NCBI GenBank assembly: GCA_020444425.1
Contig: JAHLLB010000005.1
Span: 62,001 to 126,000 of the forward strand
Length of the DNA stretch: 64,000 bases
Direction of reading: 5' to 3'
DNA from: a bacterium
GTDB taxonomy: Bacteria > Electryoneota > Electryoneia > Electryoneales > Electryoneaceae
Shown here: positions 23,519-39,717 of the stretch, piece after piece
Layout: every line of letters begins with the position of its first letter
How positions within the stretch are numbered: the first letter of the stretch is position 1
Position numbers and translations under genes: made by a program
Notes under the pieces: model-generated
What the model saw: only the letters and a program-made list of their open reading frames with translations
The model's database searches: none
What the model was told of the DNA's origin: nothing

Positions 23519-25006
23519 TTATTCTGTCTCCAAATGCCCGACCAATGTCCGCAGCCGTCCCCGGCTCAGGCCCAGATACTTTGCCGTCGCGAGCTGGTTG
23601 CCGTCGAACTTGTCCAACGCTTTCCGCACAATCTCATAGGTCAACTCGTCCAGGTCGAGCCCGTTCGGCGGGAGCTGAACCATCCCCGGCTGCAACACCC
23701 CTGCGCCGCCATCCTCACCGACGCCGCCCTGCATTCGTTGATCCAGCTCAGCGAGGTGCGTCGAATCCAGCTCGACAGCGTTGTACAGCAACACCGCGTG
23801 TTCGATCAAGTTCCGCAACTGACGCACATTGCCCGGCCAGTTGTACTGCTCGAGCATGCGCACCGCTTCCCGGCTGATGAACCGGAAATCACGCTGCTTT
23901 TCGCGAGCGAATTCGGCGAGAAACAGCTGCGCCATCGGCGGAATCGACGCCCGCTGTTCCCGTATCGGCGGAATCTCGATCCGTCCGACCGCGAGCCGGT
24001 AGTAGAGGTCCGAGCGGAAGCCGCCGGCCTGCACCTGCTTTTCCAGGTCACGGTTGGTCGCGGCGATGACCCGAATGTCCAACGGGATCGCCGTCGTGCC
24101 GCCGACACGGTAGATCACCTTTTCCTGCAACGCGCGTAGAAGTTTCGCCTGCATCGGCATCGGGATTTCGCCGACTTCGTCGAGGAACAACGTGCCGCCG
24201 TTCGCGGCTTCCATCTTCCCGCTCGCGCCCTTGGGCAACGCACCGGTGAACGCGCCGCCGACATACCCGAACAGCTCGCTTTCGAACAAACTGTCGCTGA
24301 TCGCGGCGCAATTGACCGTCACGAACGGCTTGCTCGTGTCGTCGCTGTCACCGTAATGCACCACCTTCGCCAGCACTTCTTTGCCAGTGCCGGTTTCGCC
24401 CTCGATCAGCACCGGAATGTTGCGGTCGTCGTTGTAGCGCAACGCTGTATCCACAATCGCGCGGAACTTGCGGCTGAACACACCGATCACGGTCTTGTCC
24501 GCAAGCACGACCGTCGAACGCATCGGCCGGTCGCCGTTCTCAGTGTCGGCCGCCGGAACATCGCCCGACACCTGAGCGGCACGCCGTTTCTTCCGCTTCA
24601 GGTCGTCATACTGCTTCGCCACCCGTTCGACCACCTGCAACAGGTCGGTGATCGGGATCGGCTTGGTCAGCATCTCGGTGGCACCTTCACGCAACGCACT
24701 CAGTGCCGTCTCAACATCCGCAAAGCCAGTAATCAGGACGACTTGCGTATCTTTCCCGTTCGGGTGCGCACGGATTTCATGCAGCAACTCGAGCCCATCC
24801 AGGCCCGGCATACGCACGTCCGAGATGACGATCGGAAACTGTTCCGACTCGAACTGTTTCTTCGCCTCGAGACCGTTGTCGCATTCGACAACCTCGCTCG
24901 CGGTGAACTCCGTCAGCACCCGTGCGAATACCGCACGGCTGATCTCGTCGTCGTCCACCAACAGGATTCTTTTCCGCAATTCGAGCATCGTCGCCCTGTG
25001 TCTCAT
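23519..25006 (-). CDS. NtrC-type sigma-54 response regulator
   Basis: A 495-residue regulator. The receiver domain (about 10-125) has acidic DDD at 18-20 and the phospho-acceptor Asp63 in VISDVRMPG. The AAA+ domain (about 180-410) has Walker A GETGTGKE, the sigma-54 contact loop GAFTGA intact, and Walker B GGTLFLDEVGEIP. A Fis-type helix-turn-helix closes the protein (GNQLATAKYLGLSRGRLRTL). It activates sigma-54 promoters after phosphorylation. No histidine kinase is encoded nearby, so it is an orphan in this window. The start at 25006 is uncertain; ATG 24988 (MLELRKRI) is an alternative. Targets are unknown. Confidence 0.93.
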   Translation of the reverse strand: MRHRATMLELRKRILLVDDDEISRAVFARVLTEFTASEVVECDNGLEAKKQFESEQFPIVISDVRMPGLDGLELLHEIRAHPNGKDTQVVLITGFADVETALSALREGATEMLTKPIPITDLLQVVERVAKQYDDLKRKKRRAAQVSGDVPAADTENGDRPMRSTVVLADKTVIGVFSRKFRAIVDTALRYNDDRNIPVLIEGETGTGKEVLAKVVHYGDSDDTSKPFVTVNCAAISDSLFESELFGYVGGAFTGALPKGASGKMEAANGGTLFLDEVGEIPMPMQAKLLRALQEKVIYRVGGTTAIPLDIRVIAATNRDLEKQVQAGGFRSDLYYRLAVGRIEIPPIREQRASIPPMAQLFLAEFAREKQRDFRFISREAVRMLEQYNWPGNVRQLRNLIEHAVLLYNAVELDSTHLAELDQRMQGGVGEDGGAGVLQPGMVQLPPNGLDLDELTYEIVRKALDKFDGNQLATAKYLGLSRGRLRTLVGHLETE

Positions 25007-25053
25007 GACAATGGATGGAGGGAAGGGGGGATGAACAAGCAGGCCCGTACTTC

Positions 25054-25265
25054 GTATCCGGGGACACTTTGGTGACAACGTGTCCCCGGATACGTCCGTG
25101 CCCGTGTCTTCCCATGCGTCTTGCCCGTGTTGGCTCGGCCAACGCGGGTCCGCCCCACTGCGTCAAATATACGGCGCGGAAATCCACAAAACGCGTGAGA
25201 GTGGTTGAAATCAACCACTCCCGGTCCAGGCCTACGTTTGGATGCCCACGACATTTATGTCGTGG
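25054..25265. repeat. Palindrome cluster upstream of the response regulator
   Basis: A 14-bp perfect stem GTATCCGGGGACAC/GTGTCCCCGGATAC (25054-25093), CCCGTGTTGGCTCGGCCAACGCGGG (25124-25148 in two arms), GAGTGGTTGAAATCAACCACTC (25199-25220), and CCACGACATTTATGTCGTGG (25246-25265). Parts of these recur at 25441-25465, 23055 and 15426. Confidence 0.75.
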
Positions 25266-26508: not shown

Positions 26509-28245
26509 ATGCACCACATTTTGTTCATTTGCAAGGGTCCATCCGGCCGCAGTCAAATGGCGGCGGCCTTCGCGCGTCAACTCGCACCGGACAACGTCGA
26601 GATCCACGCCGCCAGCCTCGAGCCGGAGATGGTACACCCCGTCGCACGCAAGGTGATGGCGGAATCCGGTCTTGAAATTCCGGAATCCAGCCCGGCGATG
26701 CAGGAGCTGACCGCCACCAGCTTTGAGGCAGTGGTGACCGTGTGCGTGCGCCTGCAGGAACAAAATCCGCAATTCCCAGGCTCGCCGGCACGGATTCACT
26801 GGGGCTTGAGCGATCCGCTGGTACTGGTGAAGGGAAACGGCAAAGAACTCACCGACCATTTTCGCCGGGTACGTGACGAAATCCGTGACCGGGTCCGCAT
26901 CTTCTTCGAACAGGGCTACTTCGAGGCGATTGTCGAGCTGCAACTCAGCTACGGCAGGCTGCTGAACGCGATGACGGACGGTGTCATCGCCCACGACAAG
27001 CATCGCAAGATCTTCTTCTTCAACCACGCTGCCGAGGACATCACCGGCCTTTCCGCCGATGAAGCGCTCGGATCTGATTGCCACGCCATCATGCCGGGCC
27101 ATTTCTGCGGCAAGGATTGCGAGGTCTGCATGAAGAATCCGAACATCGACGTGCGCGCCGACATTCCGATCGAGTATCGCCGCAAGAATGGCGAAATGCG
27201 CAGCCTGCGCATGTCGATCATGCCGATGATGGACGCTGAGGACCAACGCACCGGCGCACTGATCCTGCTCCGTGACATGACCGAGATGAATCTGTTGCGG
27301 ACACGGCTGGAAGCCAGCCGTGGCTTCCAGGGTATCATCGGCCTGCACCCCTCGATGACCAAGATTTACGCCAACCTGCGCGAGGTGGCGAAGGTCAATG
27401 TGCCGATTCTCATTGAAGGTGAGAGCGGCACCGGCAAGGAATTGGTCGCTCAGGCGATCCACAAACTGAGCCCGCGCACGAACAAGCCGTTTGTTCCGGT
27501 CAACTGCGGCGCACTGCCCGAGGGTACACTGGAATCCGAACTGTTCGGGCATGTCAAGGGCGCATTCACCAGCGCCATCCGTGACAAGAAGGGACGGTTC
27601 GAGCTGGCGGACGGCGGCATCCTGTTCCTCGACGAAATTGGCGAAATCAGCCAGAAGCTGCAGGTGAAACTGCTGCGTGTGCTGCAGGAAAAGTCTTTTG
27701 AACGTGTCGGCGGGGAAGAGCCGGTCAATGTGGACGTGATGGTCATCTGCGCGACCAACCGCAACCTGAAACAACTCACCGACTCCGGCCAGTTCCGCCA
27801 GGACCTGTACTATCGCCTCGCGGTGGTACCGATCCGCATCCCGCCGCTGCGCGAACGCAAGACCGATATCCCCCTGCTGATTGAATACTTCATCGAGCAG
27901 TTTGCCAATGAGAACAACATGGCCGCCGATGGGATTTCCAGCAATTCATTGAACGCGCTGATGCAATACGCCTGGCCCGGGAATGTGCGTGAACTGTCCA
28001 ATGCCATCCACTACGCGATGATCAAATCGCAAGGCGGTGAGATTCAGGAGCACCATCTGTCACCGGAAATATCCAGTAACTCTGTGAAACAGGGTGGACC
28101 GAAACGCGGACGCCGTCCCAAGCTGAACCCCGCCGAGGTGGAACAGGCACTGAAGGAAGCCGGCGGCAACAAAGCCAAAGCCGCGGATTCCCTCGGGGTT
28201 AGCCGCACAACCCTGTACCGCTACATCGAAGAATTAAAAGTGTAA
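26509..28245 (+). CDS. Sigma-54 activator with ArsC/LMW-phosphatase-like and PAS domains
   Basis: A 578-residue protein with GGAG before ATG 26509. Residues 1-135 form a low-molecular-weight phosphatase/ArsC-like domain: P-loop C8-x5-R14 ([13 protein letters not shown]), Cys79 in VVTVC, and Asp102-Pro in GLSDP. Position 86, where thioredoxin-linked ArsC has its third cysteine, is Asn. Residues 145-265 are a PAS domain with four cysteines (C191, C200, C204, C207). The AAA+ domain has Walker A GESGTGKE (about 303), GAFTSA instead of GAFTGA (about 351), and FLDEIGEI. The C-terminus is a Fis-type helix-turn-helix ([20 protein letters not shown]). It probably senses a redox, oxyanion or phospho signal and activates the cytochrome locus just downstream, which begins with a sigma-54-like promoter. 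Confidence 0.88.
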
Positions 28246-28257
28246 TGATTACAGTTC

Positions 28258-28281
28258 TGTCCAGAAAATCATTTCTGGACA
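28258..28281. promoter_or_regulatory. Perfect palindrome TGTCCAGAAA/TTTCTGGACA, candidate activator site
   Basis: Ten-base perfect arms with an ATCA spacer, 13 bases after the regulator stop and about 230 bases before the sigma-54-like promoter. Half-site copies follow at 28289-28299 (TGTTCAGAAAA) and 28379-28389 (TGTTCAGGAAT). Placement and repetition fit an enhancer for the Fis-type activator; it could instead be a terminator, though it has no T-tract. Confidence 0.55.
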
Positions 28282-28390
28282 CATCGAGTGTTCAGAAAAT
28301 CCTTCCGACCTGTTAATCCTCAGTAATACAGCGGTATTAGAGCCTACCCGCAGACTTCGTGTGTACGAAAATTCCGAGTGTTCAGGAATG

Positions 28391-28418
28391 AATGTCACGG
28401 AATTGTCATGAATTGTCA
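28391..28418. promoter_or_regulatory. Helically phased AATTGTCA repeats
   Basis: AATGTCA (28391), AATTGTCA (28401) and AATTGTCA (28411) are spaced exactly 10 bases, one turn of DNA. They lie about 90-115 bases before the sigma-54-like promoter, a spacing seen for bound activators or bending proteins. Confidence 0.4.
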
Positions 28419-28507
28419 CACCATTATTTCGTTTTCACACCCCCTAAGTTTGTTAAATCCAGCTTTATCAGTCGGTTAACAGTTAGGAGTGTCTTACTTT
28501 GTGAAAA

Positions 28508-28522
28508 TGGCACACAATCTGC
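28508..28522 (+). promoter_or_regulatory. Candidate sigma-54 (-24/-12) promoter
   Basis: TGGCACACAATCTGC matches TGGCAC-N5-TTGC at all positions except C for the first T of the -12 element; the GG and GC are correctly spaced. Transcription would start near 28534, 20 bases before the first gene of the cytochrome locus and directly downstream of a sigma-54 activator gene. Confidence 0.7.
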
Positions 28523-28553
28523 CAAGGGATGGGCAACTGGAATGGAGTCCGTT

Positions 28554-28796
28554 ATGTCCGTCGAGAACCGCTACCTGCTGGAGATCCTGACCTTGAGTCA
28601 GCGGATGCTCGAAGTTGCGCACAAGGGAACTGAGGTTCGATCGGACACGGAAAGCGGTATCGTCTTTGGCACGTTGCACGATTACGCGATGCACTTGCGC
28701 AAACTTTCCCTGGAACAGATCAAGCGGCACCGTCAGATGGGATGGTTTGACGAAGACGACGAAAAAGCGCTGGATTTTTATCGCGGCACTTTGTGA
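28554..28796 (+). CDS. Small hypothetical protein leading the cytochrome operon
   Basis: An 80-residue protein. I chose ATG 28554, with GGAG six bases upstream; an ATG at 28542 is possible. The product has no signal peptide or cysteine and looks mostly helical, with many charged residues (LRKLSLEQIKRHRQMGWF, then DEDDEKALDFYRG). I do not recognise the family. As first gene behind the candidate sigma-54 promoter and 74 bases before the nonaheme cytochrome, it may be a cytoplasmic accessory or regulatory factor of the locus. Confidence 0.6.
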   Translation: MSVENRYLLEILTLSQRMLEVAHKGTEVRSDTESGIVFGTLHDYAMHLRKLSLEQIKRHRQMGWFDEDDEKALDFYRGTL

Positions 28797-28870
28797 ATTC
28801 GAAAACAAGCAGTAGCGTTGAAGTTACTTCGGCGGTTCAGGGCCGCCAAACATTCAGGAGGAAGCCCCCA

Positions 28871-30340
28871 ATGTTTCGTAACCTGTTAGTCATGATGCTT
28901 GCGATCATGCTGGCTTTTGTGCTCTTCGGCTGTGAAGGCGAAGAAGGCCCACAGGGTCCGGCGGGTCCGCAGGGTGAAGTGGGTGAAGATGGTGAAGACG
29001 GTGAAGACGGCAAGGATGCCACCACTGATCCGTACACGTTCATCGGTAACAACGGTGATGAATGCGCCCACTGCCATGGCGCGACCGTTGACGGCTGGAT
29101 GGGCACCGCCCACCCGAACGCTTATGCTGATCTCGAAGCTGAAGACCAGGAAAACCCGTACTGCCTGCAGTGCCATGTGACCGGTGTTGACGAAATGGTC
29201 GCGTTCGGCGCCACCGAATTCCCGGGTGGCGAAGACATGTACGGCTACGACAACTATTTCGGCGTTGAAGGCGATTCCGCTGCCATGCGTCGTGCAGCCC
29301 TCGAAGGCGTGCAGTGCGAAGCCTGCCACGGCGCCCTCGGCCCGCTGGACGGCGTTGGTGCGCACCGCGCTGAAGTCGGCCTCTCGACCATCTGGGAAGA
29401 TGTCGGCGGCGAAATTGAATTCGAATCCACCTGCATGCCGTGCCACGAGCGCCAGCTCGAAGAATGGCAGATGTCCGGCCATGCCAACGCCGGTGGCAAC
29501 CTCGAAGGTTTCCGCGAAGAGCATTATGCCGGCGGTTCCTGCGCCCCGTGCCATACGGGCGAAGGTTTCATCGCGGCCAACGATCCGGCGCATGCTGACT
29601 ACGACGGCCCGTACAGCTGGGTCGGTTGCCAGACTTGCCACGATCCGCACAATGCGAACAACCCGGGACAGCTGCGTAACGTCGATCCGGTCTACGTTGA
29701 ATTCCATCCTGGCTACGATCCGGAAGAAGATGGCGAGATGGGGACGATGGACGGCTACTTCGCCGGCCAGACCTGCGCCCAGTGCCACCACGCGCGTCGT
29801 GACACCGACAACGTGTTGAACCAGATCGCGGAAGGCTACGGTCACTTCGGTCCACACAGCTCGCCGCAGATGGACATGTTCATCGGTTATGGCTGCTACG
29901 AAATCGATGGATACGAGTACGAGCGTGAAAACTCGCACCAGAACGTCCTGAGCAACGAAGAAGAAAACGGCTGCGTGGCCTGCCACATGGTCCGCTTCGA
30001 AGAGCTGCACGGTGAAGAAGCTGAGCACGTTTACCACCAGTTCGCTCCGGAAGGCGCGGCCTGCTATGGTTGCCACAGCCTCGATCCGGGTGACTTCGAC
30101 AAGGGTGGCGTCCAGACCGACACCGAAGCCAAGATGAACGAGCTCGCGGCTGCCCTCGGCTACACGGACTACATGGACTTCGAAGCGAACTTCGACAGCC
30201 AGGCTGACGGCGTGACTGTGCCTGAGCGCGAAGCTGCCTACGCACTGGTGTTCGTCATCAGCGACGGTTCGCACGGCATCCACAACCCCAGCTACTCGAT
30301 GGATCTGTTGCAGAACGCCATCGATCACCTGGCGGAATAA
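28871..30340 (+). CDS. Nonaheme c-type cytochrome lipoprotein with collagen-like linker
   Basis: A 489-residue protein starting at ATG 28871 behind AGGAGGAA. The lipobox LFGC puts the lipidated cysteine at residue 21. It is followed by a short collagen-like and acidic linker (GPQGPAGPQGEVGEDGEDG), then nine CxxCH heme-binding motifs (CAHCH, CLQCH, CEACH, CMPCH, CAPCH, CQTCH, CAQCH, CVACH, CYGCH). The last 80 residues carry no heme. The acidic linker could extend the heme domain from the membrane, so this is a good candidate for the outer-surface or barrel-associated terminal reductase. It is the first cytochrome of the locus. Confidence 0.88.
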   Translation: MFRNLLVMMLAIMLAFVLFGCEGEEGPQGPAGPQGEVGEDGEDGEDGKDATTDPYTFIGNNGDECAHCHGATVDGWMGTAHPNAYADLEAEDQENPYCLQCHVTGVDEMVAFGATEFPGGEDMYGYDNYFGVEGDSAAMRRAALEGVQCEACHGALGPLDGVGAHRAEVGLSTIWEDVGGEIEFESTCMPCHERQLEEWQMSGHANAGGNLEGFREEHYAGGSCAPCHTGEGFIAANDPAHADYDGPYSWVGCQTCHDPHNANNPGQLRNVDPVYVEFHPGYDPEEDGEMGTMDGYFAGQTCAQCHHARRDTDNVLNQIAEGYGHFGPHSSPQMDMFIGYGCYEIDGYEYERENSHQNVLSNEEENGCVACHMVRFEELHGEEAEHVYHQFAPEGAACYGCHSLDPGDFDKGGVQTDTEAKMNELAAALGYTDYMDFEANFDSQADGVTVPEREAAYALVFVISDGSHGIHNPSYSMDLLQNAIDHLAE

Positions 30341-30407
30341 TCGGCAGTAGCAGACTGGACGGTACCATGCCAGACACCGTCACCGTCTGTATCGGTTGAC
30401 CATTACG

Positions 30408-30449
30408 GACGACCGCCGGCGCCCCCAACATCCGGCGCAGGCGGTTGTC
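30408..30449 (+). terminator. Strong hairpin inside the cytochrome locus
   Basis: GACGACCGCC pairs with GGCGGTTGTC (one G-U), with an inner GCGCC/GGCGC stem. It has no T-tract. It may lower read-through from the nonaheme gene into the barrel gene or protect the upstream mRNA 3' end. Confidence 0.5.
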
Positions 30450-30518
30450 TGCTTTCGAAGGTCAAGCTAACACGTTGCAATACATGGGCTTACTTCCTTT
30501 CCCAAATGGGAGGAACGC

Positions 30519-31784
30519 ATGAACAGGAATTGGGGACGCTGGACAATCGTCACCCTGACAGCCGTCGCACTGCTTGCTGTCGCGGGCACCGCAACGGCTG
30601 ACGATTTCCGGCTGAAAGGGTCCATCGGTGGCAGCGCCTACGGCTACCAGGATCCCGACAACCAGCACCACGTGTGGATGGTGCAGCAAACGAGCGCGTC
30701 GCTGTACAAGACGGGATCCCCGTGGTCCCTCCATTTCAGCGGCGGCTGGACCGGCGACAACGTCTATAAGGAAGGCGTGGAGGACGACGTCCTCCGCTTC
30801 ACCCGCGGCTACCTGCGCTACGGCGATCTCGGATCACCGGTGCGCGCGAAGCTCGGCCGCTTCTTCCTCGTCCGTGGTCCGGCGATCGGTGTGCTGGACG
30901 GCATTGATGTCAACTACCGCTTCAAGCACGGCGTAAACGTTGCCCTCTTTGGTGGCCTCTGGGGCCCGATCACCCGGGAATTCGAATTCGAAGATCCGGA
31001 TGAGTCGATGGCGTTCGGTGGTGAGGTCGGCTGGGTGGGACGTAACGTGCTCTGGGCACGCCAGACCCACATCGCACTCTCCTACGCGAACATCCAGCGT
31101 GACAAGGAAGAGCTGCGCAATCGGGTCGGCCTGCAGACCACGCACCGGTTCACCAATTCCATTACGTGGTACAACCTGTTCCGTTTCCGCACCGAGGGCA
31201 CCCCGCTGCGGCGCTTCATCAGCCGCCTGCGCATGAACGGCGAGATCTGCTCGCGGATGCTGGAAGTCTCGGCGATTTCGGCTGAAGCGCCGGATGAAAG
31301 CTACTTTGCCGACTTCGATGAAACGACATTCTTCCGTGTCCGTGCCGCCGCCGACCGCTGGTTGGTCAAGGACATGTGGGGCTTGGGATTTGACGTCGCA
31401 GCCCTGATGACCGACGAGCCCGGCTACCGCATCGGACCGTACGCCAAATTCCCGTTCGGCCGCATCGGCTACCGGTTCTACGCCGGCGATCAACCGACTG
31501 CGAACGGCTTCTGGGCCCAGGCCAATTACATGATGCTCGACCAGCTCGAAGTGTACGGCTACGGTTCATTCGCCAGCTACGAATGGGAAGCGTTCGACAA
31601 CACGAACGACGACGCAAGCGAAATCCTGTCGCTGTACGGCGGCGTCAACTACTACCCGGCTTTCTTGCACGGTGTGTCGATGAAACTCGAGTACCAGCAC
31701 TTCCAGACACCGCAGTACGATCAGGACCGCCGGGCGATGATTGGCCTGCGCTGGGGATTTGACACCGCGGAGGTGACACGATGA
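30519..31784 (+). CDS. Outer-membrane beta-barrel (porin-like) of the cytochrome locus
   Basis: A 421-residue protein with GGGAGGAAC before the ATG and signal peptide VTLTAVALLAVAGTATA. The mature part is rich in alternating aromatic and polar residues in strand-sized runs (FRLKGSIGGSAYGYQ, SWSL-type strands such as WSLHFSGGWTG, RIGYRFYAGDQ, LYGGVNYYPAF, AMIGLRWGF), as expected for a barrel of about 16 or more strands. It has no CxxCH motif. In porin-cytochrome conduits such as MtrCAB a barrel sheaths a multiheme cytochrome; this gene sits between two cytochrome genes and overlaps the next by four bases, so the same role is likely. Sequence similarity to MtrB is not obvious. Confidence 0.75.
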   Translation: MNRNWGRWTIVTLTAVALLAVAGTATADDFRLKGSIGGSAYGYQDPDNQHHVWMVQQTSASLYKTGSPWSLHFSGGWTGDNVYKEGVEDDVLRFTRGYLRYGDLGSPVRAKLGRFFLVRGPAIGVLDGIDVNYRFKHGVNVALFGGLWGPITREFEFEDPDESMAFGGEVGWVGRNVLWARQTHIALSYANIQRDKEELRNRVGLQTTHRFTNSITWYNLFRFRTEGTPLRRFISRLRMNGEICSRMLEVSAISAEAPDESYFADFDETTFFRVRAAADRWLVKDMWGLGFDVAALMTDEPGYRIGPYAKFPFGRIGYRFYAGDQPTANGFWAQANYMMLDQLEVYGYGSFASYEWEAFDNTNDDASEILSLYGGVNYYPAFLHGVSMKLEYQHFQTPQYDQDRRAMIGLRWGFDTAEVTR

Positions 31785-32608
31785 CGACGAAACACACCAT
31801 CCGCATCGCTGCCCTGCTGATCGGGCTGCTGACCATTGCCTGGTTCGCCATCGGCGGGAACTACGGCCACCTGAACTTCAACCATCCGCTACACGTCGCG
31901 GACGCCGGAATGGCCTGTGAAGACTGTCACGCAGGCATCATGGACACGATGCTCGACGACATGATCCCGGTGCCGAACCACGACACCTGCGAGATGTGCC
32001 ACGACGTTGACGACGATTGCGAAACCTGCCACGTCGGCGATCCGATGGCTGCGCCTGCGGTGTACGCCGGTACGAAGTACACAACCTTCGCGCACGGCAA
32101 CCACGGTGATCTCGACTGCGTCGCTTGCCACGGTCCCGCCGAAGAGATGGAACCCGGCTACCCCACCAGCGAAAGCTGCCAGGGTTGTCACGAGGATCTC
32201 GAGGTAACACCCTCGACGCACCGTCTTGAAACCTGGGTGCACGATCATGGCATGGACGCGATGATGAGCGAGAACGATTGCGCCGCCTGCCACACCCAGA
32301 ATACGTGCGACGACTGCCACCAGGGCGAAAATATCCTGGCGAACACCCCGCACCCGCCGGAGTGGCGCTTCACCCATTCGCTGGATACCATGTATGGCTC
32401 GGAATGCCTGTCCTGCCACGAAACCCGTGACGACTGCATCGCTTGCCACCGTGCGACCGTGCCGACGCCGCACCCGCTCGGGCCAACGTACGCCAACAAC
32501 GCGGACGGCGGTGAACACGTTGATGAGGCCAGCGCCTTCCTGCTCGCCTGCCTCGCGTGCCACGATGTCGAAAACCAGGACCCGGTCTGCGCCCGGTGCC
32601 ACCAGTAA
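31781..32608 (+). CDS. Undecaheme c-type cytochrome
   Basis: A 275-residue protein overlapping the barrel gene by ATGA, so coupled in translation. An N-terminal hydrophobic segment (IAALLIGLLTIAWFAIGG) is a signal peptide or membrane anchor. It has eleven CxxCH motifs (CEDCH, CEMCH, CETCH, CVACH, CQGCH, CAACH, CDDCH, CLSCH, CIACH, CLACH, CARCH), one heme per 25 residues, with the last only one residue from the C-terminus. Extra histidines (FNHPLHV, FAHGNHG) are candidate distal ligands. Such dense packing fits a wire-like electron carrier; by position it could thread the barrel, as MtrA does. Confidence 0.88.
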   Translation: MTTKHTIRIAALLIGLLTIAWFAIGGNYGHLNFNHPLHVADAGMACEDCHAGIMDTMLDDMIPVPNHDTCEMCHDVDDDCETCHVGDPMAAPAVYAGTKYTTFAHGNHGDLDCVACHGPAEEMEPGYPTSESCQGCHEDLEVTPSTHRLETWVHDHGMDAMMSENDCAACHTQNTCDDCHQGENILANTPHPPEWRFTHSLDTMYGSECLSCHETRDDCIACHRATVPTPHPLGPTYANNADGGEHVDEASAFLLACLACHDVENQDPVCARCHQ

Positions 32609-32620
32609 AGGAGACGGACC

Positions 32621-33589
32621 ATGCTGAAGAAACTTGATACACGCTGGCTCCTCCCGATCCTGGTACTGACCGTCGCCGGTCTGCTGACGGGCTGTGGGAG
32701 TGAAGTCGCGGATGACTGGGATCCAGCCTCGCCCGCCGAGGCACGGCACCCGTTTGGTGAAACCAGCCACGCATCGTACATGGTGGCCCAGGAGTACGAT
32801 TTCGCCCAGTGTACCGAATGTCACGGTGACGAGCTGCGCGGGGTCGAACTCGGCGATCCGATGGACCCGGTGCGCGCATGCACCGAATGCCACAACACCA
32901 ACAACCACTTCGTTTACTTCGACAATGCGTTCGAACACTCGCAGTGGATGAGTGAAAACGAATACATGATGGACGAGTGCTATACCTGCCATTCCGCGAC
33001 CAGTCAAGCCGCAGATCAGCTGGACGTCGACTTCGGCGGAAGCTGCTCGTCCGAAGGCTGCCACGACAGCGAACTCGGTGCCCTGGCCTGCAACACCTGC
33101 CACGGTGACTTCGAGGGCAGCGCGTCCGTCATGATCGACTGGGCTCCCGAAAAGGGCGCACACATGACGCACCTTGCCGGCAGCGGCTGGCGCGCGGAGA
33201 TGACCTGCGCCGACTGCCACAGGCAACCCACTCAGGCCGTCGCCAACGGTCACTACAACGATGACACACCGGGCATGGTCGAAATCCGTTTCGGCAGCAC
33301 CGCACGGACTGGCGATTTTGATCCGGAGTGGAAAACGGACACCAGCACCTGCTCCAACGTCTACTGCCACGGGGGTGGTGAGGTTGACTGGCGGCTGCAG
33401 AACGTTGAGTTCACCTGCACCTCGTGCCATATGTATCCGCCGCCGGTCGAGCAGGGCCACCCGGATAACGATGATTGTGTCTCGTGCCACGGGGCTGTCG
33501 TCGGTGCGGACGGTGATGATGCTGATACGTTCGTCGAGATCTTGAACGAAGATCTGCACATCAATGGATCTGTCAACTTCAACGAGTAG
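32621..33589 (+). CDS. Multiheme lipoprotein with CxxCH and CxxxxCH motifs
   Basis: A 322-residue protein, 12 bases after the previous gene, with AAAGGAGACGG as ribosome-binding site. The lipobox LTGC gives lipidated Cys25. Nine heme motifs are visible: seven CxxCH (CTECH twice, CYTCH, CNTCH, CADCH, CTSCH, CVSCH) and two of the longer CxxxxCH type (CSSEGCH, CSNVYCH). The CSNVYCHG string is the signature of the CxxxxCH/CxxCH domain known from Geobacter outer-surface cytochromes. It is likely attached to the outer membrane and part of the same conduit. Confidence 0.87.
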   Translation: MLKKLDTRWLLPILVLTVAGLLTGCGSEVADDWDPASPAEARHPFGETSHASYMVAQEYDFAQCTECHGDELRGVELGDPMDPVRACTECHNTNNHFVYFDNAFEHSQWMSENEYMMDECYTCHSATSQAADQLDVDFGGSCSSEGCHDSELGALACNTCHGDFEGSASVMIDWAPEKGAHMTHLAGSGWRAEMTCADCHRQPTQAVANGHYNDDTPGMVEIRFGSTARTGDFDPEWKTDTSTCSNVYCHGGGEVDWRLQNVEFTCTSCHMYPPPVEQGHPDNDDCVSCHGAVVGADGDDADTFVEILNEDLHINGSVNFNE

Positions 33590-33650
33590 TACAAGTAGAA
33601 ACACGGAACTTGAGGAAACCACATTTCCTTCACTAAGGAGGCATAGATAC

Positions 33651-34184
33651 ATGCGAAAGATCCTGATCTTGCTCCTCGCCATCTTCGTGGTGGGAGCCTA
33701 TAGCGCTGACGTGTTCGCGCAAGACCACGCGTTCATCGGTGCGAAAAAGTGTGGCATGTGCCACAAGGGCGAAAAGAAAGGCATGATCCTCGAGAAGTGG
33801 GAAGAAGGTCCGCACGCCAAGGCGTACGAAACCCTCGCCACCGATGAGGCGAAAGCCATCGCCACCGAAAAAGGCCTTGGCAACCCGCAGGAAGCGGCCG
33901 AATGTCTCAAGTGCCACGTCACCGGCCACGGCATGGACGCAAGCCTGACCGCCGATCTCGATATGGCCAACGGCATCTCCTGCGAAGCCTGCCACGGCGC
34001 TGGTGCCGACTACAAGTCGATGAAGATCATGAAAGATCGTGAAGCTTCCATCGCCGCAGGCATGGTCGCCGCGCCGAAAGAAGGTTGCGTGTCCTGCCAT
34101 AACGAAGAGAGCCCGACCTACAAACCGTTCGTCCTGGAAGAGTACTGGGCGGAGATCGAACACGGTCTTCCCGAGGGCGAATAG
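33651..34184 (+). CDS. Tetraheme periplasmic cytochrome (cytochrome c554-like)
   Basis: A 177-residue protein starting at ATG 33651 behind AAGGAGG, with signal peptide ILILLLAIFVVGAYSADVFA. It has four CxxCH motifs (CGMCH, CLKCH, CEACH, CVSCH). The arrangement FIGAKKCGMCHKGEKKG, then AAECLKCHVTGHG, then GISCEACHGAGADY matches the cytochrome c554/c-prime domain, where such proteins are soluble electron shuttles. It is probably the periplasmic link between the inner-membrane quinol-oxidising proteins encoded downstream and the outer-membrane cytochromes upstream. Confidence 0.88.
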   Translation: MRKILILLLAIFVVGAYSADVFAQDHAFIGAKKCGMCHKGEKKGMILEKWEEGPHAKAYETLATDEAKAIATEKGLGNPQEAAECLKCHVTGHGMDASLTADLDMANGISCEACHGAGADYKSMKIMKDREASIAAGMVAAPKEGCVSCHNEESPTYKPFVLEEYWAEIEHGLPEGE

Positions 34185-34233
34185 TGAGTCGTTTTCCGTG
34201 TGAAACTGCCGTCAGTCCCCCAGACGGCGTGTC

Positions 34234-34268
34234 GGCCTGCAGCCGTGGAGCCCCCAAGGCTGCAGGCC
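34234..34268 (+). terminator. Perfect 11-bp hairpin after the tetraheme gene
   Basis: GGCCTGCAGCC and GGCTGCAGGCC with a 13-base loop, about 50 bases after the stop. No T-tract. It divides the locus into an outer-membrane part and an inner-membrane part. Confidence 0.6.
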
Positions 34269-34509
34269 ACATTTCCACACGGTTTCTTGTCGTCAGAAGT
34301 TTGTGAAGATTTGCACGAGCGGGTGTCGGTGAAGCACCCGCTTCGTTGTTACAAACTTAGAGGTTCGGAGAGCTTAACAATCGGTATTGAGGAGGGTTCG
34401 TTATTATATTCACAATGGCTGGATTGATCGAACGGCAAGCGATACCACGAAATGCCGAATTCTGACGCCGGCCAGCCTGAGACCGATTGTTTCCATGCAC
34501 AAACAACTT

Positions 34510-34552
34510 CGTGAGGAATACCTCACGCACTTAACGGACCCCACAGGGGTCC
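34510..34552 (+). promoter_or_regulatory. Twin hairpins in the leader of the 19-heme gene
   Basis: CGTGAGG-AATA-CCTCACG (34510-34527) and GGACCCC-ACA-GGGGTCC (34536-34552), both perfect 7-bp stems, 70-110 bases before the start. The 34185-34622 gap has no supported gene; these could be leader-RNA control structures or protein sites for a second promoter. Confidence 0.5.
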
Positions 34553-34622
34553 ACGCGTTGAACGACACGACACGGCAAGACGGGGTTCTGTTCAACGTCT
34601 AACCTGGTGGAGATGGATTCAG

Positions 34623-37199
34623 ATGCACGCGCAACCGCACACTCGTATCGGGTTCTTTCTGCTGATCTGGCTGCTGCCGGTTCTGCTGTTCGCGCAGGCG
34701 GCGGATGATTGCCTGATGTGTCACGCTGATACGGAACTGGAAGCGGAGGATGGTTCCATCGTCGGCGTTGACGAAGAATACTTCGGGGACAGTGTTCACG
34801 GTTTCTTCGATTGTGTCGATTGCCATGATCAACCCGGAGCGGACTGGGAAGACCTGCCGCACTTCAGCGTCTACCACCCGGTGGATTGCAGCATCTGCCA
34901 CGAAGACGCCGCAGGCAGTTACGATGGCAGCTTCCACGGTCGTGCGCTCGCAGGTGGCGAAGCCGAGGCGCCAGAATGCTCGCAGTGTCACGGTTCTTCG
35001 CAGGATCCCCATCGGATTCAGTCTGTTGGTTCAGGTGTTGCGGAAAATGCATGCCGAGTCTGTCACCGCAAGGAAACTCAGGCGTACCGCGGATCAGTGC
35101 ACCAGGTCGCACACGATCAGGGCAAACCAAGCCCGGGCTGCACCTCCTGCCACCCGACGCATGGCGCAGAGCTACCACCATCTGCTGGTGCGGTAAACAA
35201 TCTCTGTCTTTCCTGCCACAAAGATGCAATGCGGTCGGTGATGATCGGCGGCCACCCGTTCGGAGAAACGGAACAGGGCGCGATCAACTGTGCATCGTGC
35301 CATGATGTACACGCGACACACATCCCGGAAGTTGACTCCGGCACATTGCAGGCTTGCGTCGAATGCCACCCGGGCTACGAATCCCAGTTCGCAGGATCGG
35401 TGCATGAAGAAATGCTCGAATCCGAAAAGATGAACTGTTTGTCATGCCACAAAACGCATCAGGTTGCGGATACTGAAGAAGAAACGGAATTCGGCTGCGG
35501 TCAGTGCCATGAAGACGCGGAAGCCGTCTATCGAACAAGTGCTCATCGAATGGCACGTCTGCACGGGGACGTTGTCGCCGCAGAATGCGCGGACTGCCAC
35601 GGCGGCCACCATATTCTCCCGGCTTCCGATCCGGAAAGCCTGGTTCACCACGACAATATTCCAGGGATGTGCGGCGAATGTCATAGTGACAACACGGTGA
35701 TCACATCTGACTACGTTCGTTTGCCCATCTCACTGCCCAGCTATGAACGATCCGTGCATGGCATGGGACTGCAGGCAGGCAAGCCCACGGCAGTTTGCAC
35801 CGATTGTCATGGCAGCCATAACCTGCAATCAGCCAACGTTTCCACGAGTATGGTTGCGCGTCAGAATTTGACGCAGACTTGCGGACAATGCCATGAGGAA
35901 GAGGCGGCAATCTTTGGTGAATCGGTGCATGGCCGAGCGGTACAGCACGGCATCAAGGATTCTCCAGATTGCACTGGTTGCCATGAGGAACACCTGATTC
36001 TTCCGATCAGTGATCCCGATTCTCCAGTGAACCCGTCGAATATCAGTCATCACGCCTGCCGCGAATGCCACGAAGATCCAGAGTTGGCAGCACGCTACGG
36101 TCTTCCCACGGAAGTTGTGGAAAGCTATGAAGATAGCTATCACGGTTGGGCGCTTTCCCGTGGCGGCGGCATGGTCGCATCTTGCGAGGATTGCCACGGA
36201 ACTCACAATATCAAAAGCATTCACGATCCGGATTCCCGGATCCATCCGGATAACGTAGTTGCCATGTGTGGCGAATGCCACGACCAGTCCAACCCGACTT
36301 TTGCAGCCAGCTACAGTCACATCTCCGCTCGCGGTGCGTGGGGCATCCACGACTACGCGCGGGTGATCTACATCATCCTGATCGCGATCGTGCTCGGCGG
36401 TATGGCGTTCCACAATGGTCTCATTCTGTTCAAGACCATCCGCCACCACAAGCGCCACCACGAAGCGCAGGAAGCCGTGTTACGCATGACGAAGAACGAA
36501 ATCTGGCAGCATATCCTGCTCGCGTTCACCTTCATTGTGCTTGCGATTACCGGTTTTGCCCTGCGCTACCCGGACGCCTGGTGGGTCAACATCTTGACCA
36601 GCCTTGGGATGACGGAAACGGTCCGTGCCTTCACCCACCGCCTCATGGCCGGGATGATGATCGCCACGTCGTTCTACCACATCGCCTACCTCTGGTTCAC
36701 CGCGCGTGGACGTGAACTGATGAAGGCGATGATCCCGCATCCGAAGGACGCCGGTCGTGCGCTCGGCACAATGCTTTACTACATGGGCTTGAAGACCAGG
36801 CAGCCAAACCACGGCATGTTCGACTACACGCAAAAAGCCGAGTACTGGGCCCTCGTCTGGGGAACGATTGTCATGGCTCTGACCGGCTTCATCCTGATGT
36901 ATCCGGACCTGGTGACCGCGTTCCTGCCGGCATGGGTCATTCGAGTCAGTGAAACCATTCACTTCTACGAAGCGATTCTCGCTGTTGGTGCGATCATCAT
37001 CTGGCACTTCTTCTTCACCATCTTCATCCCGCGTGAGTATCCGATGAGCTGGATCTGGATTACGGGAAGAATGCCGAAGCACGAGTGGGACCACCACCAC
37101 AGCGATGAAACGAACGAACTGGGTCGTGAACCCAAGATCTTGCCCCCCACCGGCAAGTACGCCGACGGAGAGAAGGATGATCCGCTTCTTCCGCATTAA
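34623..37199 (+). CDS. 19-heme cytochrome c fused to membrane cytochrome b
   Basis: An 858-residue protein with signal peptide GFFLLIWLLPVLLFA. Nineteen CxxCH motifs lie between residue 30 (CLMCH) and about 553 (CGECH), arranged as repeated modules of the form SVHG..CTDCHGSHN..CGQCH. The C-terminal third (about 575-810) has five membrane helices with histidine pairs (WQHILL, FTHRLMAGM, FYHIAYLW, IHFYEAIL, WHFFFTIF) of the di-heme cytochrome b561/HydC type. The same logic, multiheme c joined to a quinol-oxidising b domain, is known in Geobacter CbcL, which has about half as many c-hemes. It is probably an inner-membrane quinol dehydrogenase feeding the periplasmic cytochromes. It overlaps the next gene. 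Confidence 0.9.
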   Translation: MHAQPHTRIGFFLLIWLLPVLLFAQAADDCLMCHADTELEAEDGSIVGVDEEYFGDSVHGFFDCVDCHDQPGADWEDLPHFSVYHPVDCSICHEDAAGSYDGSFHGRALAGGEAEAPECSQCHGSSQDPHRIQSVGSGVAENACRVCHRKETQAYRGSVHQVAHDQGKPSPGCTSCHPTHGAELPPSAGAVNNLCLSCHKDAMRSVMIGGHPFGETEQGAINCASCHDVHATHIPEVDSGTLQACVECHPGYESQFAGSVHEEMLESEKMNCLSCHKTHQVADTEEETEFGCGQCHEDAEAVYRTSAHRMARLHGDVVAAECADCHGGHHILPASDPESLVHHDNIPGMCGECHSDNTVITSDYVRLPISLPSYERSVHGMGLQAGKPTAVCTDCHGSHNLQSANVSTSMVARQNLTQTCGQCHEEEAAIFGESVHGRAVQHGIKDSPDCTGCHEEHLILPISDPDSPVNPSNISHHACRECHEDPELAARYGLPTEVVESYEDSYHGWALSRGGGMVASCEDCHGTHNIKSIHDPDSRIHPDNVVAMCGECHDQSNPTFAASYSHISARGAWGIHDYARVIYIILIAIVLGGMAFHNGLILFKTIRHHKRHHEAQEAVLRMTKNEIWQHILLAFTFIVLAITGFALRYPDAWWVNILTSLGMTETVRAFTHRLMAGMMIATSFYHIAYLWFTARGRELMKAMIPHPKDAGRALGTMLYYMGLKTRQPNHGMFDYTQKAEYWALVWGTIVMALTGFILMYPDLVTAFLPAWVIRVSETIHFYEAILAVGAIIIWHFFFTIFIPREYPMSWIWITGRMPKHEWDHHHSDETNELGREPKILPPTGKYADGEKDDPLLPH

Positions 37200-39717
37200 A
37201 AAATCAACCGCGCAGCGAGGGGTGATCTCATCTTTCGCTGTGGCGGCGTTCATGTTGACCTTCCTGCTGTTTTCAATAACAGCAGGAGCGTTTGCGCAGG
37301 ACGACGAAACCTGCGAGATGTGTCATGATGACCCGGACATGTCCCGTATGGAACAGGGCATCCCGCAATCCCTGTACGCGAATTCGGCGATGATCGAAGA
37401 GTCGGTCCATGCCGGATTCGGTTGCATCGACTGCCACCAGTCGCTGGATGGTGTCGAGGATTGGCCGCACGAGCCGAACTTGCCGGGCGTTGACTGCTCG
37501 ATGTGCCACGATGACGCGTTCGAAGAGTACATGGACGGGTTCTATCAGCACCTCGAGGCGCGCGGGTTCAGCAACATTCCCGGGTGTACGTCCTGCCACG
37601 GCAACCACGAGATCTCCGGTGAGGCCGACACACGCAAAGTCTGCGGTGTCTGCCACAATCAGGAGGTGAAGACGCTGGCGAAATCCGTCCACGGCACCAC
37701 CACGGACGCCACCATCTCCTGTACATCGTGCCACGCCGCGCACACGAAGAACGAACAGGGTGACATGCTCGAAGCCGATTGGCGGCTTGAAGTGACCGAC
37801 AAGTGCCTGAGCTGCCACCGGGACGATTCCGAAGGCTACCTCAAATCGGAACACTACACCGCTGTCAAGTCGGGCAGCGAAGAAGCTCCGATCTGCGTTG
37901 ACTGCCATGGTTTCCACGACATCTATGCCGTCGATGACCGGCACTCACCGGTGCACGTCGACAACATGGATGCTACCTGCTCGCAGTGTCACGAGGGCAA
38001 GGAAGCCACTGTCCACCGCAAGAGCGGGGTCGATGCCCGCCTGATGACCTGCGCCGCCTGCCACACCGGCCACGAGACCCATTTCGAAGGTCAGGCCGGC
38101 GGACACTTCCAGGAAGAAGTCAGCCTGACCTGCAACCGCTGTCATGAGAAAGATGCACACACGGACGACAACCTCGCCCACGCGTCCATCATGGGCGGGG
38201 AAGAAGGCACAGAATTCTCGTGCCTGCAGTGCCACTCGTACCACTACGAGGACGCCACCGAAGCTCACAAGGCCGGCGGCGGCACCTTGAGCTGCGCCAG
38301 TTGCCACGAGGAAGAAAATGACCTCTGGGCACGTTCCGCGCACGGTGTCGCCTATCGCAAAGGCCACACCGAAGCACCGAACTGCGAAACCTGTCACGGT
38401 GACGGCCAGATCCAGAAAATTTCCGAAGAGTTTGACGGACAATCGATCATTTCGCTGTGTGCGTCCTGCCACGCCGACCGTGACATGATTCTCCGCTTCC
38501 AGCTCAACCCGAACGCCGTCAGTGGCTACCTCAACACCTACCACGGCAAGGCGTATTCGCTGGGCTATCAGGGCGAGGATTTCGCGACTTGCGTCTCGTG
38601 CCACGACAACCACCTGATCCTGCCGCGCGACAATCCGGAATCGTCCATCGCGCAGCAGCACATCATGGAAACCTGTGGCCGCTGCCATGACGATGTAAAC
38701 AAGAACTTCGTCGCCCAACTACAGCACTACGATCCGATGGCGCACGAGGAACACCCGGTTCTTGACGTGATCCACGTGTTCATGGTCTGGTTGCTGCGGA
38801 TCACGCTCACCGTCTTCGGCATTCACACCCTGCTCTGGCTGTGGCGAGCCGGCTGGGATGGCATCCGCCATGGCCGCAAGATCCGGGGACGCAAGGGACA
38901 GGTGCGGTACATGCGCTTCGGAGTGTTCGAACGCGTCCAGCACGGTATCGTGATCGTCAGCTTCCTGCTGCTCGCGATGACCGGCCTGCCGCTGAAGTAT
39001 TCCTACACCGAAGCGTCCTACTGGATCGCGAACAACCTCGTCGATCTGCGCACCATGGCAATTCTGCACCGTATCGGCGCCGGCATGACCTTCACCTACT
39101 TCGCGCTGCACCTCGGCGGCCTGATGTACAAGCTCGTGCGCCGCAGGTTGACGCTGAAGAGCCTGCTCTGGGGTGTCGACAGTCTCGTGCCGCAACCGCG
39201 TGACATTAAGGACTTCTTCCAGCACATCGGTTTCTTCATCGGTGTCGCGGAACGGCCGACCTTCAACCGGTTTACCTACTGGGAGAAGTTCGACTATATG
39301 GCGGTGTTCTGGGGTGTCGCGGTGATCGGCGCGTCCGGCCTGACCCTGTGGTTCCCGGAATTCTTCACCAAATTCCTGCCGGGCTGGGCGATCAACGCTG
39401 CAATGATCATCCACTCCGAGGAGGCACTGCTCGCAACCGGCTTCATCTTTACCATACATTTCTTTAACGAGCACTTCCGTCCTGAGAACTTCCCGATGGA
39501 TGAAGTCATTTTCACGGGACGTGTCAGCGAACACTACATGATGGAAGAGCGCAAGGAGTGGTATGACCGGATGAAGGCGGAGGGCAAGCTGGACACCATG
39601 CGTGTCAAGCCGATGGCCGTGATTCCGCGAATCCTGCTCTACACCTTCGGTTTCAGTGCCCTGGCGATCGGGCTTGCGCTGCTGGTTCTGATCGTGGTCG
39701 GAACATTCACTGGCTAG
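37177..39717 (+). CDS. 17-heme cytochrome c fused to membrane cytochrome b
   Basis: An 846-residue protein starting at ATG 37177, inside the end of the previous gene, with GGAG five bases upstream. The signal peptide is [20 protein letters not shown]. Seventeen CxxCH motifs run from residue 46 (CEMCH) to about 500 (CGRCH). Membrane helices follow at about 530, 587, 629, 705, 741 and 816; histidines in [35 protein letters not shown] and TIHFFNEHF are candidate heme b ligands. It is a diverged paralogue of the 19-heme protein. The 23-base overlap suggests that the two are made together and may form one complex. Confidence 0.9.

Follow-up and report, generated by a model that had tools for sequence, protein, structure and literature searches.

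The interval 28258-28522 is in all likelihood a sigma-54 control region for a small gene and the cytochrome genes behind it, as judged from sequence comparison, and the neighbouring activator very probably drives these genes through RpoN. The window, by which we mean the whole 64-kb stretch of DNA analysed, had been predicted to hold such a region between an activator and cytochrome genes. That original prediction is supported by the presence of rpoN, the neighbouring activator, a -24/-12 element at about 20 loci and recurring half-sites. The features are as follows, with positions in the window and distances counted from the expected start of transcription.

26509-28245, + strand: activator gene, 578 aa, with ArsC/LMWPc-like domain, four-cysteine PAS domain, sigma-54 AAA+ domain and Fis-type HTH
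28258-28281, no strand: inverted repeat TGTCCAGAAA-N4-TTTCTGGACA with perfect arms, leading candidate for the enhancer site
28289-28298, + strand: half-site TGTTCAGAAA, -245 to -236; GAGTGTTCAGAAA also found at the G006 locus
28379-28388, + strand: half-site TGTTCAGGAA, -155 to -146; AGTGTYCAG conserved in G003
28391-28418, + strand: direct repeats AATGTCA, AATTGTCA, AATTGTCA, -143 to -116
28466-28478, + strand: IHF-type site TATCAGTCGGTTA, -68 to -56, fitting WATCARNNNNTTR
28508-28522, + strand: putative -24/-12 promoter TGGCAC-N5-CTGC, expected start near 28534; position kept in about 20 loci
28544-28547, + strand: GGAG ribosome-binding site, 6 bases ahead of the ATG, read directly
28554-28796, + strand: first gene of the predicted operon, 80-aa three-helix protein of an unnamed family (34-row alignment; AlphaFold2)
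28868-39717, + strand: cytochrome cluster, six multiheme c-type cytochromes and a candidate outer-membrane barrel

The -24/-12 element, TGGCACACAATCTGC, is near-consensus as predicted and lies 31 bases ahead of the ATG at 28554. Its GG and GC dinucleotides are 10 bases apart, in keeping with the TGGCAC-N5-TTGC consensus, and it has a single core mismatch, C for T (CTGC instead of TTGC). Genome-wide, TGGCACNNNNNYTGC is not enriched (20 matches, compared with 46 for the reversed control pattern). We therefore dropped the word as sole evidence. When 39 loci were scored for sites matching at least 9 of 12 positions and lying 25-60 bases ahead of the small ORF, 20 carried one and shuffles gave 0.2; the 39 loci are related, some of them closely, and the 20 matches are not 20 independent events. 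This recurrence of position across loci is the strongest evidence for the putative promoter. The word is strong because of the cross-locus comparison; alone, it is not significant genome-wide.

The nearest relative, G003, has a weak version of the -24/-12 element (AGGCATACAATTGGC). Aligned with this genome, the region is conserved in blocks: the palindrome, AGTGTYCAG, AATGTCACGGAATTGTC, TATCARTNGGTTA and the -24/-12 element, with the IHF-type site included among them. The gap between the genes has 42.5% GC, compared with 59% for the whole window, and the commonness of the -24/-12 word has been described above. Both would suit chance matches in an AT-rich gap, with an ordinary promoter, or transcription running on from the activator gene, serving the operon. 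However, position is conserved over about 20 loci, the footprint is visible in G003 and no sigma-70 type promoter was found in 28200-28600, all of which make chance a very improbable explanation. The sigma-54 reading also depended on the genome having an rpoN gene. An intact one is present on another contig (PF04552, E 4.5e-51), with an open frame of 494 aa and an RpoN box.

The protein encoded upstream of the gap matches the Pfam domains LMWPc, PAS, Sigma54_activat and HTH_8, with PF00158 scoring 235 bits; its AAA+ sigma-54 interaction domain and HTH place it among the enhancer-binding proteins. The GAFTGA loop reads GAFTSA in this activator and in those of G003 and G004a; most relatives have GAFTGA. 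The four cysteines of the PAS domain are invariant in a 13-row alignment. The predicted fold of the N-terminus matches B. subtilis ArsC (1jl3, E 6.7e-12), and the PAS domain also has a fold match. The ArsC-like domain contains the CX5R loop and the DP motif, and one relay cysteine seen in relatives is missing. Against the NCBIfam ArsC models the N-terminus scores 87 bits with a cutoff of 174, making it ArsC-like and not classed as ArsC. Judging by these residues, a redox or oxyanion signal acting via the ArsC-like loop and the PAS cysteines is plausible. The literature covered, mostly excluding subscription papers, yielded nothing relevant on an ArsC/LMWPc-sigma-54 activator. A few kb farther upstream, at 23519-25078 on the - strand, is another gene for a sigma-54 activator, this one of the response-regulator type.

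The palindrome, TGTCCAGAAA-ATCA-TTTCTGGACA, is perfect as first described, with 10-bp arms and a loop of 4, and would span -276 to -253 if transcription starts at 28534. Of 500 dinucleotide-shuffled versions of the region, 3 contained arms of this length. The palindrome is the sole match in the 4.48-Mb genome, also when as many as 3 mismatches are allowed, and its position and 24-bp length are kept in G003 and G002a. Both additional half-sites of the original prediction are present (TGTTCAGAA at 28289 and TGTTCAGGA at 28379). TGTYCAGRA occurs only four times in the 64-kb window, in the two palindrome arms and at these two half-sites, and no shuffle of the region out of 2000 held at least three such words. 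The half-site at 28289-28298 shows no conservation in G003. The prediction also relied on conservation of the sites in related genomes, and conservation in relatives was found. Inverted-repeat sites 80-300 bp upstream that are kept in orthologues, like those here, are characteristic of upstream activating sites.

The palindrome starts 13 bases past the activator's stop codon, which raises the question of whether it terminates that gene's transcript, or forms a 3' RNA hairpin, with the promoter driven from other sites. Compared with shuffles, its RNA has a somewhat better fold (z = -1.97), and several relatives have inverted repeats at the same place. However, no T-run follows the palindrome, and a search gave no terminator-like site; with the T-run absent, we set the terminator reading aside. 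In addition, TGTYCA words recur at related promoters, both as single half-sites and with other spacings. We consider an RNA role of either kind improbable and retain the palindrome as the main candidate enhancer site.

TGTYCA is enriched at five related promoters, with 4 words in the window, 4 in G003, 3 in G002a, 5 in G006 and 9 at a paralogous locus in the same genome, where 0.4-0.8 would be expected. At most other loci, TGTAAC words replace TGTYCA in the same interval. Shuffle counts for the two words are descriptive because both were picked after the sequences had been viewed. In the activator tree the TGTYCA loci are split between two clades; therefore, more than one change of the site, or more than one retention of an old site, took place. 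Comparing the recognition helices by eye, we saw no obvious difference that accounts for TGTYCA as opposed to TGTAAC sites. The paralogous activator/small-gene locus is made up of L032, with the activator, at the start of contig C37, and L166, with the small ORF, at the end of contig C66 (both in G000), and its -24/-12 element reads TGGCACGCAGCATGC. The two contig ends are probably adjacent across an apparent contig break, because both carry a TTGTCAG-type tandem repeat.

Downstream of the half-sites, the original prediction placed three AATTGTCA repeats phased at 10 bases. Two full copies are present, at 28401 and 28411, and the first copy is AATGTCA, at 28391. The AAT starts are indeed 10 bases apart; with one T missing from the first copy, the TGTCA words (28393, 28404 and 28414) are 11 and then 10 apart. 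Three TGTCA words within 21 bp were found in 0 of 2000 shuffles. In G003 the first copy is kept whole and the second for the most part, and the third is not conserved. At about -145 to -111 of the G003 locus (L064), AATGTCACG is followed by an inverted copy, CGTGACATT; the window has direct TGTCA repeats.

The TGTCA repeats could possibly serve a second regulator or be extra activator sites. More broadly, a regulator other than the neighbouring activator, OmpR/PhoB-like in the case of the repeats, might bind the TGTYCA sites or the TGTCA repeats, either with the activator or instead of it. The TGTCA-N6-TGTCA spacing resembles a Pho box, though 5 of 18 positions differ. AATGTCACGGAATTGTC is identical in the window and G003, reversed AATGTCACATAATTGTCA is present in L067, and the spread of TGTYCA loci over two activator clades would also fit another regulator. 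On the other hand, TGTYCA words are carried by this genome's own paralogous activator/small-gene promoter too. At all related loci the sites adjoin the gene for the activator; the TGTCA repeats were seen in three loci only. We regard another regulator as unlikely, though the likeliest of the competing explanations, and favour binding of the TGTYCA sites by the neighbouring activator.

The layout originally proposed, with enhancer, bending region and promoter, is supported for the enhancer sites and the promoter. For the bend, the AATTGTCA repeats are a less suitable location than 28466-28478. There, between enhancer and promoter, TATCAGTCGGTTA is a perfect fit to WATCARNNNNTTR, a site that the earlier prediction missed. 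WATCARNNNNTTR is the E. coli IHF consensus (PMC7962754). The corresponding site in G003 is likewise perfect and at the same -68 distance. Across 27 loci, 4 have a perfect IHF-type site in -95 to -50, compared with 0.22 expected, and 4 was never reached in 100 shuffles. We rejected the AATTGTCA repeats as first-choice bending element because their third copy is not conserved and the IHF-type site is. The genome has four HU/IHF-family genes, and the three that were scanned all score below the IHF cutoffs. The bending protein may therefore be IHF-like or HU.

The first gene after the putative promoter encodes the 80-aa protein, which has no match in Pfam or NCBIfam. AlphaFold2 models it as three helices with a pLDDT of 96. 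A fold search against the PDB returned nothing significant; matches to encapsulated ferritins had E values of about 1.5. In the 34-locus alignment of the family, A22, D31, D43 and H59 are invariant. The multiheme c-type cytochrome genes that follow begin at 28868, 31781, 32621, 33651, 34623 and 37105. Position and signal sequence point to the gene at 30519 as a candidate outer-membrane barrel, for which no relative was found in Pfam, NCBIfam or PDB sequences. Within the cytochrome cluster there is a 438-bp gap (34185-34622), followed by two large multiheme genes. These two genes may use their own promoter; the gap contains no strong -24/-12 match.

Among the 39 genomes of the phylum, 14 encode an activator with the N-terminal domain, and exactly the same 14 encode the small protein. 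Within the phylum, the activator is followed at most loci by about 220-520 bp, the -24/-12 element and the small ORF, and this arrangement recurs beyond the phylum. Scanning contigs outside the phylum, we found the pair in MAGs labelled Acidobacteria, Kapaibacterium, Kiritimatiellae, Deltaproteobacteria and others; many Desulfobacteraceae matches cover the PAS part only and do not imply an architecture shared with the activator. Cargo at other loci includes a molybdopterin oxidoreductase, a PAS kinase, a protein with a macro domain, and an Fe-S/CCG protein that carries a receiver domain. Genes for cytochrome bd and rubrerythrin are found nearby at L128 and L080. The protein encoded at L068:11585-13345 combines Fe-S dicluster and CCG (heterodisulfide-reductase-like) domains with a C-terminal response-regulator receiver domain, and its gene adjoins that of a PAS histidine kinase.

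It is conceivable, at a little less than an even chance in our estimation, that these loci represent an undescribed and widespread module, in which an ArsC-like/cysteine-PAS sigma-54 activator and a small three-helix protein are joined to interchangeable redox cargo. Such a module would command, as its cargo, either multiheme cytochromes, or a molybdopterin oxidoreductase, or a PAS kinase together with an Fe-S protein; in some other phyla the small gene is located close to genes for cytochrome bd or rubrerythrin. The small protein would possibly be a metal-binding partner or an anti-activator.

For the control region itself, we propose that a signal, probably redox or oxyanion, would be sensed by the N-terminal domains of the activator. 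The TGTYCAGAAA palindrome and the half-sites, between about -276 and -146, would form the enhancer bound by the activator, which is encoded just upstream. With the DNA bent at -68 to -56 by a protein of the IHF or HU type, the AAA+ assembly would open the sigma-54 polymerase held at TGGCAC-N5-CTGC, and transcription would start near 28534. The predicted output is that the three-helix small protein and the multiheme cytochrome genes are switched on. The weak -24/-12 element of G003, CTGC in place of TTGC, the TGTAAC words of other clades and the HU/IHF scores below IHF cutoffs count against this model.

The model describes multiheme cytochrome switching in an uncultured lineage at base level and is testable. 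It ties the switch to a sensor design, with an arsenate-reductase-like domain and a four-cysteine PAS, and to a partner protein without a name in the family libraries searched. The activator design and the small partner protein appear undescribed in literature that mostly excluded subscription papers. Should the pairing hold up, the small protein would be a marker of redox-controlled operons in several phyla.

The activator resembles thioredoxin-type ArsC in its predicted N-terminal fold, CX5R loop and DP motif. Unlike ArsC, this domain is fused to a transcription activator, scores below the ArsC cutoffs and has lost one relay cysteine. The cytochrome cluster is similar to the porin-cytochrome conduits of extracellular electron transfer in having several multiheme cytochromes around a candidate barrel, and differs from them in that the barrel has no recognisable relative in the databases searched. 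To our knowledge, a TGTYCAGAAA half-site with a 24-bp palindrome is neither an NtrC nor a NifA site. In the order of enhancer, bend site and promoter and in the distances between them, the predicted region nevertheless matches NtrC/NifA-class sigma-54 promoters, with which it also shares an AAA+ activator with a Fis-type HTH and RpoN in the genome. In Desulfovibrio, the sigma-54 activator DVU3142 adjoins the ohcBAC multiheme cytochrome complex and is predicted to control it (PMC4641369). DVU3142 is divergent from the ohcBAC operon, whereas here the activator is upstream on the same strand and the small-protein gene comes next. In both, a sigma-54 activator stands beside multiheme cytochrome genes, and because such an activator beside a cytochrome operon has already been predicted in Desulfovibrio, the control region is of a known kind.
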